Positions 2,862-7,567 of a DNA stretch of 64,000 nucleotides are shown here, piece after piece; position 1 is the stretch's first letter, and each line of letters opens with the position of its first letter. The DNA comes from Lutibacter oricola (lineage in GTDB: Bacteria; Bacteroidota; Bacteroidia; Flavobacteriales; Flavobacteriaceae): assembly GCF_900106565.1 (NCBI RefSeq), contig NZ_FNNJ01000006.1, positions 1 to 64,000 of the forward strand, written 5' to 3'. The translations under genes and the position numbers were made by a program. The notes beneath the pieces are model-generated. The model worked only from the letters and a program-made list of their open reading frames with translations. It was not told the DNA's origin and made no database searches.

Positions 2862-4466
2862 ATGAAAAAAATAGTTACATTCATATTTATTGTAAGTTTT
2901 AGCATTTTAGGTTTCTCTCAAGAAACTGAAGAAAGGTATACAATTCAAAATTTATCTGTAAACAATAGGTATTCAAATTTTGGTACATCTTTATACGGTG
3001 AAAACCAGATGATTTTTGCTATGCCTGCAAAGAGGAATTATATTATTAATAATACTTGGACTACGAATAACCAACCATTTTTAGATTTATATGTGGGTGA
3101 TATAAAAGAAAGTGGTCAATTAGAAAACATTAAAAAATTCTCAAGTAAATTAAATACAAGATTTCACGAAGCTGATGTAACATTTACAAAAGATAAAAAA
3201 ACAGTTTATTTTACTAGAAGTAATTATTTTAAAGGAAAATATAAAAAGGATACGTTAGGTATTAATAGACTTAAAATGTTTAAGGCCACCGTTGGAGAAA
3301 ATGATGAATGGTTAAATATTGAATCTATGCCTTTTAATGATGATAACTATTCATGTGGTCATCCAAGTTTAAGCGAAGATCAATCTACACTTTATTTTGT
3401 GTCTGATATGCCTGGAACTTTAGGAAAAACGGATATATTTAAAGTTGCCGTTAATGGAGATGGAACTTATGGACCTCCAGTTAATTTAGGACCAACAATT
3501 AATACAGAAGAAAGAGAAATGTTTCCTTATATAGATGGGAATGATGAATTATATTATTCAACAAATGGAAGAGATGATGGGTTAGGAATGCTAGATATTT
3601 ATGTAGCGAGGTTTACTCCAGATGGAATTTTAGAGCCAGTACATTTAGGTAATAATATAAATAGTGAAAGAGATGATTTTGCTTTTATAATAAATAAAGA
3701 AAAGAGAGAAGGATATTTCTCATCGAATAGATACAGAGGAAAAGGAGATGATGATATTTATTATTTCAAAGAAGAGATTCCGCTTCCGAAACCAGTTATA
3801 GTTTGTAAACAAATTTTTAATATTATAGTTAAAAATAGAAAAACAGGAGAGTTAATTTCAAATGCAGATATTAATATATCTAAAGGAAGTGAAGCTATTA
3901 TTGAAGGTGATTTTACAGATGAAAAGGGAGCTTATAAATTAGAAGATGTTGATTGTGAAACAGAATATACAATTGAGGCTGGTAAAAGATTCTTTTTATC
4001 TGATACTAAGTTGATAAAAACATCTAATAAAAACGAGTTAGAACAAACTATAGAAATGCTGATTTCTCCAGATGAGTTTATTGTAGTTAGGGAAAAAGTA
4101 ATGATTGACATTAATCCAATTTACTTTGATTACGATAAATTTAATATTAGAAAAGATGCGGCTCGTGAGCTTGATAAAGTTGTAAAGGTAATGAATAAGT
4201 ATCCTGATTTAATTGTGGAATCAGGTTCACATACAGATTCTAGAGGTCGAGATGCTTATAATAATTATTTATCAGATAAAAGAGCTTTATCTACAGTTGA
4301 TTATATAATTTCTAAAGGTATTTCACCTGAAAGAATTACAGGAAAAGGATATGGAGAAACACAATTAACTAATAAATGTTCTAACGGTGTACGTTGTACT
4401 ACAGAAGAACATCAATTAAATAGAAGAACGGAATTTGTAATTGTTAATCCAGAAGTGATTAATTAA
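2862..4466 (+). CDS. OmpA family protein with PD40 beta-propeller repeats
   Basis: A 534-residue envelope protein that probably anchors the T9SS partner system to peptidoglycan. It has a signal peptide (about residues 1-19, ending GFSQ). A PD40/WD40-like propeller region follows (about 35-305) with repeated motifs such as CGHPSLSEDQSTLYFVSD, EREMFPYIDGNDELYYSTNG and DFAFIINKEKREGYFSSN. A carboxypeptidase-regulatory-like module covers about 315-400, and a C-terminal OmpA domain covers about 418-534 (PIYFDYDKFNIRKDA, SGSHTDSRGRDAYN, LSDKRALSTVDYI, NRRTEFVI). The Asp and Arg of the OmpA peptidoglycan site (HTDSRG...NRRTEF) are present. Many flavobacterial relatives carry an N-terminal TPR segment, which is absent here. 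It is probably co-transcribed with the two upstream genes. Confidence 0.9.
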   Translation: MKKIVTFIFIVSFSILGFSQETEERYTIQNLSVNNRYSNFGTSLYGENQMIFAMPAKRNYIINNTWTTNNQPFLDLYVGDIKESGQLENIKKFSSKLNTRFHEADVTFTKDKKTVYFTRSNYFKGKYKKDTLGINRLKMFKATVGENDEWLNIESMPFNDDNYSCGHPSLSEDQSTLYFVSDMPGTLGKTDIFKVAVNGDGTYGPPVNLGPTINTEEREMFPYIDGNDELYYSTNGRDDGLGMLDIYVARFTPDGILEPVHLGNNINSERDDFAFIINKEKREGYFSSNRYRGKGDDDIYYFKEEIPLPKPVIVCKQIFNIIVKNRKTGELISNADINISKGSEAIIEGDFTDEKGAYKLEDVDCETEYTIEAGKRFFLSDTKLIKTSNKNELEQTIEMLISPDEFIVVREKVMIDINPIYFDYDKFNIRKDAARELDKVVKVMNKYPDLIVESGSHTDSRGRDAYNNYLSDKRALSTVDYIISKGISPERITGKGYGETQLTNKCSNGVRCTTEEHQLNRRTEFVIVNPEVIN

Positions 4467-4493
4467 AATATTTAAAATCTAAAACTATAAATT

Positions 4494-4692
4494 ATGCAGT
4501 TAAAGTTATACTACAGTTGTGGGGACGACGAAAACTTTAACTATATTTGTAGACTTTAGTTTTCTGGTTAAGATATTAGAAAAGTAACATATATACTGCA
4601 GTTGTGGGGACGACAAATTTATGTGACTTTAATATAAACTAAGACTTAATAAGAAAAGAAAAGTCTCGAGAACAATGTTCTCGAGACTTTTT
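4494..4692 (+). ncRNA. Candidate structured RNA with two copies of one hairpin motif
   Basis: The tail after the OmpA stop contains two copies of one motif. Copy A has an outer stem 4498-4507/4533-4542 (10 bp). Copy B has an outer stem 4581-4591/4620-4630 (11 bp, one A-G mismatch). Both contain the same core: ATACTRCA on the 5' side, then an inner 5-bp hairpin GTTGT-GGGG-ACGAC (4516-4529 and 4601-4614), then RAA. The outer stems differ in sequence but both still pair, which argues for an RNA structure rather than a coding or DNA-binding repeat. A strong terminator closes the region. It may be a 3' UTR element or a separate small RNA. I do not recognise a described family. Confidence 0.55.
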
Positions 4693-4695
4693 AAT
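4659..4695. terminator. Strong bidirectional terminator
   Basis: A 15-bp perfect stem (4659-4673 with 4677-4691, core AGTCTCGAGAAC) has a 3-nt loop and is followed by T's on the plus strand. An A-rich tract on the other side would serve the minus strand. It ends the T9SS unit and, from the other side, gcvP. Confidence 0.9.
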
Positions 4696-4720
4696 TTTTG
4701 TATATTATTTTTTATAATTT

Positions 4721-7567
4721 TTACATATAATCTTCAATAGGATTACAAGAACAAATTAAATTTCTATCTCCATAGGCATCATCAACTCTTCTTACAGAAG
4801 GCCAAAATTTGTTTTCTTTAATATAGTCTAAAGGAAAAGCAGCCTTACTTCTAGAATATGGTAATTCCCAGTTATCGCTTGTTAACATTTCTTGCGTATG
4901 AGGAGCATTTTTTATAACAGAATTTGTGTCTCCAGCTTCCATTTCATCAATTTCAGATTTAATACTAATTAAAGCATTACAAAACGTGTCTAATTCTTCT
5001 TTGTTTTCACTTTCTGTTGGTTCTATCATAAGAGTTCCAGCAACTGGGAATGATACTGTAGGAGCGTGAAATCCGTAATCCATTAATCGTTTTGCTATGT
5101 CTACAACTTCAACACCTTTTTGTTTAAATTCTCTAAAGTCAACAATCATTTCATGAGCAGCAAAACCGTTTTCACCAGTATATAAAATACTGTAATGTTC
5201 TTCTAAGCGACATTTTAAATAATTAGCATTTAGAATAGCATTTATTGTAGAGTTTTTAAGCCCTTCTGAACCAAGCATTTTAATATAACTATATGATATT
5301 AACAATACAAGAGCAGAACCCCAAGGAGCAGATGATATAGCTGTAATTCCAGTTTCTTTTCCTCCCGTTGGAATAATTGGGTTTGAAGGTAAAAATGGTG
5401 CTAAGTGCTCAACTACACAAATTGGCCCAACACCTGGTCCACCACCACCATGCGGAATGGCAAAAGTTTTATGTAAGTTTAAGTGGCAAACATCAGCCCC
5501 AATAGTTGCAGGATTTGTAAGTCCAACTTGAGCATTCATATTTGCACCATCCATATAAACTTGGCCTCCATTAGTGTGAATAATTTCAGTAATTTCTTTA
5601 ATAGTGCTTTCAAATACTCCGTGCGTAGATGGGTAAGTAACCATTAAAGCAGCTAAGTTATCTTTATGTAACAATGCTTTTTCTCGTAAATCATCTACAT
5701 CAATATTGCCATCTTCAGTAGATTTTGTTACAACAACTTTCATACCTGCCATAACAGCAGAAGCCGGATTAGTTCCGTGAGCAGAAGCTGGAATTAAGCA
5801 AATATTTCTATGACTTTCATTATTAGATTCGTGGTAAGCTTTAATAACCATTAGTCCTGCATATTCACCTTGAGCACCAGAATTTGGTTGTAATGAAGTT
5901 GCATAAAATCCAGTTATTTCATTTAAAGCAGCTTCTAATTCTTTAAAAACCATATGGTAACCACCAGCTTGTTCAACAGGTACAAATGGGTGAATATTAC
6001 CCCAAATAGGCCAGCTTAAAGGAAGCATTTCAGTAGCCGCATTTAATTTCATAGTACAAGACCCAAGAGAAATCATAGAATGATTTAACGATAAATCTTT
6101 ACGCTCTAATTTTTTTATATAGCGCATCATTTCAGTTTCTGAGTGGTATTTTTCAAAAACTTCATTTGTCATAAATGTTGAAGTACGTTTAATACTTTCA
6201 TCTAAGCTTTTTTCTTCAATAGTGTTAAAGCTAATAACTGGTCTATTTTCAGCAGTAGCTATAACTTCTATAATATCATTAACATCGTTTAAATTTGTTG
6301 TTTCATTTAAAGAGATGTTAATTTGATTGTTTTTAGTGTAAAAGAAGTTTATTTCTTTTTCTTCAGCTAGTTCTTTAACCTTTTCCGTATTCGATACAGA
6401 AATAGATAGTGTATCAAAAAACATTTTATTGGTTTGTACAACACCTAACTTTTCAAATCCTTTGTTTAAAGTATTTGTTAAATTATGAATTTTTGAAGCA
6501 ATAAAAGTCAACCCGTTAGGACCGTGATAAACACCATACATACCAGCCATTACAGCTAATAAAACTTGGGCTGTACAAATATTTGAAGTCGCTTTTTCGC
6601 GTTTAATATGTTGTTCTCTAGTTTGTAAAGCCATACGTAAGGCCCTATTTCCATCTTTATCTTGGGTTACCCCAATAATTCTTCCTGGAATATTTCTTTT
6701 GTAGCTTTCTTTAGTAGCAAAATATGCAGCGTGTGGTCCACCATATCCCATAGGAATACCAAAACGTTGAGTAGTACCAACAACAACATCAGCTCCCCAT
6801 TCTCCTGGAGGAGTTAATAAGGTTAAACTTAATAAATCTGCAGCGGCAACAACTCTAGCTTCAACAGATTTTGCTTTTTCAACAAAGTTTGCATAATTGT
6901 TTACTTCACCATTTTTAGATGGATATTGTACTATTGCACCGTAAACATTTTCTGAGAATTCGAATTCCAAATGATTTCCAAAAATTAATTCAACCCCTAA
7001 TGGAATTGCTCTTGTTTTTAAAATATCTATAGTTTGTGGAAGTACATCTTCAGAAACAAAAAATTGTAAAGCATTTGCCTTTTTTTGAGCTCTAGATCGT
7101 GTATTTAATAACATAATCATTGCTTCTGCAGCAGCAGTTCCTTCATCTAATAATGAAGCATTTGCCAATTCCATTCCTGTAAGTTCAGTTACCATAGTTT
7201 GGTAATTTAATAACGCCTCTAAACGGCCTTGAGCAATTTCTGCTTGGTAAGGAGTATATGCTGTATACCATCCTGGGTTTTCTAAAATGTTACGTTGAAT
7301 AACACCAGGTAAAATTGTTGGGTGGTACCCTAAACCAATGTAGGTTTTAAATAATTTATTATTTGATGAAATATTTCTTATATGAAGCGTGTATTGAAAT
7401 TCACTTAAAGCTTCCGGAAGGTCTAAATCATTTTTAAGTAAAATATCATTAGGAATAGTTTTTTTAATAAGGCTTTCTACAGAGTCTACCCCAATAGTTT
7501 TAACCATTTCGTTGATCTCGTTTTTACGAGGACCAATATGTCTTAAAGCAAAAGAATTTGTATTCAT
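4721..7567 (-). CDS. gcvP: Glycine dehydrogenase (decarboxylating), P protein
   Basis: The P protein of the glycine cleavage system: it decarboxylates glycine with pyridoxal phosphate and passes the aminomethyl group to lipoyl-GcvH, feeding one-carbon units to folate. The 948 residues match the usual single-chain bacterial form (about 950), with both homologous halves present. Clear motifs are FALRHIGPR at the N terminus, YTPYQAEIAQGRLEALLNYQ, SLGSCTMKLNA and the PLP-lysine motif HLNLHKTFAIPHGGGGPG (Lys near residue 699). The gene stands alone: gcvT and gcvH are not in the window. A TAATTTTG -7 box lies about 35 bp upstream of the ATG, and the leader is too short for a glycine riboswitch. Confidence 0.98.
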   Translation of the reverse strand: MNTNSFALRHIGPRKNEINEMVKTIGVDSVESLIKKTIPNDILLKNDLDLPEALSEFQYTLHIRNISSNNKLFKTYIGLGYHPTILPGVIQRNILENPGWYTAYTPYQAEIAQGRLEALLNYQTMVTELTGMELANASLLDEGTAAAEAMIMLLNTRSRAQKKANALQFFVSEDVLPQTIDILKTRAIPLGVELIFGNHLEFEFSENVYGAIVQYPSKNGEVNNYANFVEKAKSVEARVVAAADLLSLTLLTPPGEWGADVVVGTTQRFGIPMGYGGPHAAYFATKESYKRNIPGRIIGVTQDKDGNRALRMALQTREQHIKREKATSNICTAQVLLAVMAGMYGVYHGPNGLTFIASKIHNLTNTLNKGFEKLGVVQTNKMFFDTLSISVSNTEKVKELAEEKEINFFYTKNNQINISLNETTNLNDVNDIIEVIATAENRPVISFNTIEEKSLDESIKRTSTFMTNEVFEKYHSETEMMRYIKKLERKDLSLNHSMISLGSCTMKLNAATEMLPLSWPIWGNIHPFVPVEQAGGYHMVFKELEAALNEITGFYATSLQPNSGAQGEYAGLMVIKAYHESNNESHRNICLIPASAHGTNPASAVMAGMKVVVTKSTEDGNIDVDDLREKALLHKDNLAALMVTYPSTHGVFESTIKEITEIIHTNGGQVYMDGANMNAQVGLTNPATIGADVCHLNLHKTFAIPHGGGGPGVGPICVVEHLAPFLPSNPIIPTGGKETGITAISSAPWGSALVLLISYSYIKMLGSEGLKNSTINAILNANYLKCRLEEHYSILYTGENGFAAHEMIVDFREFKQKGVEVVDIAKRLMDYGFHAPTVSFPVAGTLMIEPTESENKEELDTFCNALISIKSEIDEMEAGDTNSVIKNAPHTQEMLTSDNWELPYSRSKAAFPLDYIKENKFWPSVRRVDDAYGDRNLICSCNPIEDYM

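Follow-up and report, generated by a model that had tools for sequence, protein, structure and literature searches.

Decoy RNAs of the CsrB/RsmZ type are stand-alone RNAs with repeated hairpins and G-rich loops that titrate a protein. In Bacteroides, the multicopy FopS small RNAs comprise 14 paralogues (PMC11697453). The HMP-PP (thiS) riboswitch carries a small recognition domain inside an intrinsic terminator stem (PMC6478431), and the L17 downstream element (RF01708) is a structured RNA of potential 3' UTRs, often with no gene immediately downstream, for which G-U pairs serve as the strand cue (PMC2864571). Flavo-1 (RF01705) and 6S-Flavo (RF01685) are structured RNAs of Bacteroidetes.

We compared these systems with an RNA element in a 64,000-nt stretch of the Lutibacter oricola genome (referred to as the window) and with the family to which it belongs. 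As with CsrB/RsmZ, this family includes stand-alone RNAs with repeated G-rich-loop hairpins, and titration is possible; however, no CsrA gene was found here and the near-invariant apical loop is accompanied by a near-invariant internal loop. FopS and GibS with RbpB likewise involve many paralogous RNA copies within one Bacteroidota genus, but when compared by lay-out they differ in organisation, since the present modules are terminator-embedded, occur in tandem and include 3' UTR copies; also, no RRM protein was found in this Lutibacter genome. The present module shares its position inside an intrinsic terminator stem with the HMP-PP riboswitch, which governs a downstream gene, whereas most copies here follow the final gene of an operon. 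The L17 downstream element is also a structured RNA in the 3' UTR with its strand told by G-U pairs, but it belongs to Lactobacillales and Listeria and to another host gene, whereas the present family also occurs as stand-alone genes and has no Rfam match. Wherever a defining feature of one of these systems could be tested, the present family lacks it.

Rfam 15 gave no match in the window at the gathering threshold, and a scan of eight motif loci at E values up to 0.5 returned seven weak matches, none of them over the motif and none to Flavo-1 or 6S-Flavo. We found no description of the element in the literature (including PMC2864571 and PMC9723704). This agrees with the original prediction, made from the letters of the window, which recognised no described family. 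CsrA (PF02599), Hfq (PF17209) and RRM_1 (PF00076) were not found in the window genome, whereas the controls were positive for each (a Bacteroides control in the case of RRM_1); these known partners are therefore unlikely.

The hairpin pair in the window

The same prediction had placed two copies of an ATACTRCA-GTTGT-GGGG-ACGAC motif, each closed by its own outer stem, ahead of a very strong terminator. The copies and stems are read directly in the sequence, and the terminator has a 16-pair stem. The features of the locus are as follows.

889-1848, + strand: C-terminal part of a T9SS type B (CHU_C) adhesin-like protein (PF13585, 8.8e-22; PF17963; TIGR04131)
1911-2837, + strand: PorP/SprF family T9SS membrane protein (PF11751, 6.8e-81; TIGR03519, 1.8e-77)
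2862-4466, + strand: OmpA-family protein (PD40, CarboxypepD_reg and OmpA; Pfam, NCBIfam), directly upstream of the element
4493-4697, + strand: complete RNA element, two hairpins plus terminator (setting B, see below); hairpins, spacer and terminator conserved when the window is aligned with 15 related loci (16 in all)
4498-4542, + strand: copy 1 (sequence; model R1, 50.2 bits, E 1.4e-10 in the window)
4498-4507 and 4533-4542, + strand: copy 1 outer stem, AGTTAAAGTT with AACTTTAACT, 10/10 pairs
4508-4515, + strand: copy 1 loop, ATACTACA
4516-4529, + strand: copy 1 apical hairpin, GTTGT (4516-4520), GGGG (4521-4524) and ACGAC (4525-4529), then GAA
4581-4630, + strand: copy 2 (sequence; model R1, 62 bits, E 5.6e-14 in the window)
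4581-4591 and 4620-4630, + strand: copy 2 outer stem, AAAGTAACATA with TATGTGACTTT, 10/11 pairs and one A.G mismatch
4593-4600, + strand: copy 2 loop, ATACTGCA
4601-4614, + strand: copy 2 apical hairpin, GTTGT (4601-4605), GGGG (4606-4609) and ACGAC (4610-4614)
4658-4692, + strand: intrinsic terminator, GAAAAGTCTCGAGAAC-AAT-GTTCTCGAGACTTTTT and T-run, 16 pairs, fold z -6.65

The cores of the two copies are 85 bp apart. With up to three mismatches allowed, the 23-nt core has two matches in the window and none in 100 shuffles. Taken singly, the copies show a modest gain in folding over shuffles (z -1.97 and -1.45), and the 239-nt region 4467-4705, which includes the terminator, reaches z -5.07. 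The separate terminator at 4658-4692 is kept in related loci, with a wholly different hairpin in its place in L036.

The OmpA-family protein is PorE-like and CHU_0125-like, yet falls under the curated cut-offs of both. Downstream of the element lies a convergent 948-aa gene, which from its sequence we take to be gcvP. At the start of the window, identical 52-aa antisense ORFs occur on the minus strand at 194-352 and 572-730, 378 bp apart; because of these two ORFs, the adhesin gene must carry a near-identical tandem repeat.

Structure and distribution of the RNA family

A pattern scan over 84,980 species returned 83 stretches, nearly all from Lutibacter or Flavobacteriaceae records. Model R1, built from 40 diverged copies, matched 35 of 38 Lutibacter genomes, including 29 of the 29 of good quality, with one to six copies in each. 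Over the model searches together, a genome gave one to seven matches, at conserved sites. Among 397 family genomes the strict model found Lutibacter and one other genus; models R2 and R3, which take in the outer stem, brought two more, giving three Flavobacteriaceae genera beyond Lutibacter and confident presence in 4 of 231 sampled genera. The covariance-model search for further copies that had been proposed with the original prediction thus extended the motif past its close relatives. From these searches the family is restricted to part of the Flavobacteriaceae, beyond close relatives yet not widespread. In a whole-genome search with R3 the window copies scored 35.4 and 33.5 bits, and the same genome holds a setting-C pair at C16:577.4 kb and a weaker copy at C45:81.8 kb.

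Several weak matches were set aside. Those on viral contigs (L096 and L097) are identical in sequence, have no stems and seem to match coding DNA by chance. We judged L174-L176 (plain terminators or coding sequence) to be unrelated and L148 and L153, from another genus, to be probably unrelated. The last two, at L148:1250-1850 and in L153, carry terminators GAGAGCGTGGGGACGCTCTC with a common upstream hairpin in two to three tandem repeats.

The general unit is composed of three nested stems. P1, generally CAGTCGTAA...TTGCGACTG ahead of a U-run, has a 5' arm CAG[TC][CT][GA]TAA and its complement; P2, the second stem, is free in sequence; an asymmetric internal loop carries UACUACC on its 5' side; and the apical hairpin GUUGU-GGGG-ACGAC displays GUGGGGAC or GUGGGGGC. 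The bases of the core are near-invariant, whether paired or unpaired. The window copies represent a reduced form in which P1 is short or lost, so that the full P1 terminator stem is absent, but through R1 and R3 they are recognised by the features of the family, namely nested stems, the UACUACC loop and the GUGGGGAC hairpin.

Compensatory double changes were observed in 7 of the 10 P1 pairs, with 42 double-change cells against 10.8 +- 5.3 in shuffles and a covariation score of 0.303 against 0.188 +- 0.011 (a slid control reached at most 0.152). The P1 pair types include CAGTCG/CGACTG, CAGTTG/CAACTG, CAGCCG/CGGCTG, CAGCCA/TGGCTG and CAGCTG/CAGCTG. For P2, a partner test on 46 diverged copies gave 10.3 for the own arm and 6.97 for swapped arms (sd 0.53, about 6 sd; maximum over 200 shuffles, 8.24), and the compensation between outer stems first noticed in the two window copies therefore holds in these 46 copies as well. 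The predicted 5-bp apical hairpin with a GGGG loop is supported by its middle pair (position 4 of the 5' arm with its partner), which is U.G, C-G or U-A depending on the copy. Nine setting-B copies with GACTAC break one apical pair (U.U) and could adopt another apical register. The alternative register CGUU/GUGGG/GACG, proposed by RNAalifold for setting B (A-U vs C-G), was contradicted by the alpha hairpins. The + strand has many G.U pairs and few non-standard ones; because these wobbles would be A.C mismatches on the other strand, we assign the RNA to the + strand. That the paired hairpins belong to a real structured-RNA family is well supported, as regards both its existence and its structure.

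At least five T residues occur in the 9 nt after P1 in 96 of 101 copies, compared with 19 of 101 in a control taken 20 bases further on, and an A-run precedes P1 in 80 of 101. P1 with its U-run is therefore an intrinsic terminator that holds the module, and the general unit is a Rho-independent terminator with the module at its top, a form that the original prediction did not anticipate. Relatives also have plain terminators that share this P1 but lack the core (L175 and L176).

Three genomic settings

Copies of the element occupy three fixed settings in these marine flavobacteria. In setting A they lie behind a PorE-like OmpA gene in three genera, Lutibacter, g113 (L147) and g34 (L151, an array), with the GTGGGG core mostly 39-73 nt, and up to 188 nt, after the OmpA stop codon. 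Setting B is a stand-alone gene of about 190 nt with two modules and a terminator, flanked by a divergent 330-aa gene, presumably pdhA as judged from its sequence, and by the convergent gcvP (16 loci aligned). Setting C, also a stand-alone gene, has two modules behind a conserved leader and a conserved promoter-like sequence, TTGGAATT...TTTAC (16 loci aligned). The stand-alone settings B and C are each conserved over about 13-16 genomes. A promoter assignment for setting B is uncertain, because CAGTTATATTTAC, considered as its -7 box, is the 5' arm of P1 in L094. The gene that follows the element is convergent in most loci, and many copies lie in the 3' UTR of a last gene.

By its alignment, the window pair is the stand-alone setting-B gene, here located behind the PorP-OmpA operon. 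It had been predicted as a motif duplicated in the 3' UTR that follows the operon; the 3' UTR position and the terminator stand, but this is not its primary nature, as most related loci have these two hairpins and this terminator as a gene of their own between pdhA and gcvP. In the window and in L062 the setting-B pair adjoins the PorP-OmpA operon where pdhA usually stands, and pdhA of the window genome is on another contig (G000:C11:4729-5718). This arrangement suggests that the operon moved next to the stand-alone RNA gene in a rearrangement at the element. On that other contig, GTGGGGAC occurs in the loop of a TTTTATC...GATAAAA hairpin at G000:C11:4400 (L142, about 1172-1180), about 330 bp upstream of pdhA, and is possibly a decayed copy of the motif.

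A general link to T9SS, or a role as a general T9SS regulator, was rejected, as each genome has 2-8 PorP loci and the element at only 1 or 2 of them. The settings could also have arisen by duplication without a common function.

Possible protein recognition of the conserved module

The conserved RNA is probably regulatory. The reading we tentatively place first, short of an even chance, is that the window pair, with its two modules, represents the stand-alone type within a structured RNA family peculiar to this clade, and that the family's module serves as a protein recognition site on 3' ends and on decoy RNAs. Two observations suggest recognition by a protein: base-paired positions of the core vary as little as unpaired ones, and most copies are so placed that they cannot influence a gene downstream. 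A trans-acting protein would bind the internal loop together with the apical stem and its loop, all of which are near-invariant. Where T9SS PorP-OmpA operons end, the effect of the module would lie in the 3' UTR, on termination, on the stability of the 3' end or on the release of a short RNA from it. The stand-alone RNAs carry two modules apiece and would either titrate this protein or be the RNA that partners it. Read-through from ompA may be a further source of the stand-alone RNA in the window. A more specific version, possible but less probable, is a circuit resembling CsrA/CsrB without CsrA, in which an RNA-binding protein recognises UACUACC and GUUGUGGGGACGAC, is bound at terminator-embedded modules at the 3' ends of T9SS operons and is titrated by the two stand-alone, two-module RNAs.

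The main rival to protein recognition, doubtful but with the best prospects among the alternatives, is that the copies are paralogous base-pairing small RNAs, some derived from 3' UTRs and others stand-alone, in which UACUACC and the GGGG loop act as seeds for C-rich or GGUAGUA mRNA sites. The family is multicopy, as FopS is in Bacteroides, and its stand-alone genes have promoter-like sequence and a terminator; UACUACC and GGGG are also both single-stranded and conserved. However, the paired apical bases are as invariant as the unpaired ones, unlike in a seed, and this pattern fits protein recognition better than pairing. In addition, GTCCCC is absent from the + strand of the window and each of its occurrences on the - strand is the motif itself, and searches of the genome detected no Hfq and no RRM protein.

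It is improbable that the module is a ligand switch embedded in the terminator, with an aptamer ligand altering the stability of the P1 terminator and hence read-through. The lay-out is that of the HMP-PP riboswitch and copies occur in tandem, but at most loci a convergent downstream gene leaves nothing to switch on, many copies sit in the 3' UTR of a last gene, and in setting B, the window included, the terminator is separate from the modules. Riboswitches occupy the 5' leader of the gene they regulate, whereas the present copies mostly have a convergent gene or none downstream. We consider it no more probable that the element is a terminator only, bidirectional between convergent genes, with the conserved core as a favoured loop. 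The U- and A-runs around P1 and the frequent convergent neighbours agree with this, but a near-invariant 20-nt core is unneeded for termination, the L175 and L176 terminators do without it, and stand-alone genes exist.

A DNA element, either a REP-like repeat or a recombination site folding as single-stranded DNA, is very unlikely: tandem arrays are present in L033, L085 and L151 and the neighbours are rearranged at the window locus, but G.U pairs favour one strand only, promoter-like sequences and terminators are present, and the one to seven model matches per genome occupy conserved sites, unlike the hundreds of scattered intergenic copies of REP sequences. Finally, a conserved short peptide has next to no chance and was rejected by reading-frame count, since the ATG frame at 4494-4559, whose conservation at the protein level the original prediction had named as the contrary sign, is an ORF in only 8 of 103 non-redundant copies (38 of 103 for the best other frame, some copies being open there by chance), and the loops contain indels while the stems covary.

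An uncatalogued RNA family with strong covariation is documented, and its near-invariant, compact module at defined places (T9SS operon ends and two RNA genes) offers an unusually direct handle that could lead to the RNA-binding protein of this group, in a genome without detected Hfq, CsrA or RRM. The two small RNA genes could provide a route to any involvement in secretion and adhesion.

A gene for a CAP (SCP/PR1) lipoprotein often lies convergent to the element in settings A and C (L007, L016, L050, L090, L095, L147 and others). The CAP gene is followed by a family of 45-60 aa ORFs (YINTLxPxFxYxNxxG...) with no Pfam match, and in L033 the motif, small ORF and CAP gene form tandem units at 4695-5463 and 6678-7433. 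Downstream arrays of ACTAYCGNTGTGGGGAC, with unclear closing stems, occur in sister genera (L085:2570-2760, L034:7560-7720, L061 and L008). Behind the OmpA gene at L151:1508-1950, hairpins of two kinds alternate, CAGTCATTC...GGATGACTG with a U-run and CAGCTTAG...CTAGGCTG, together with GTTGTGGGGGCGAC.
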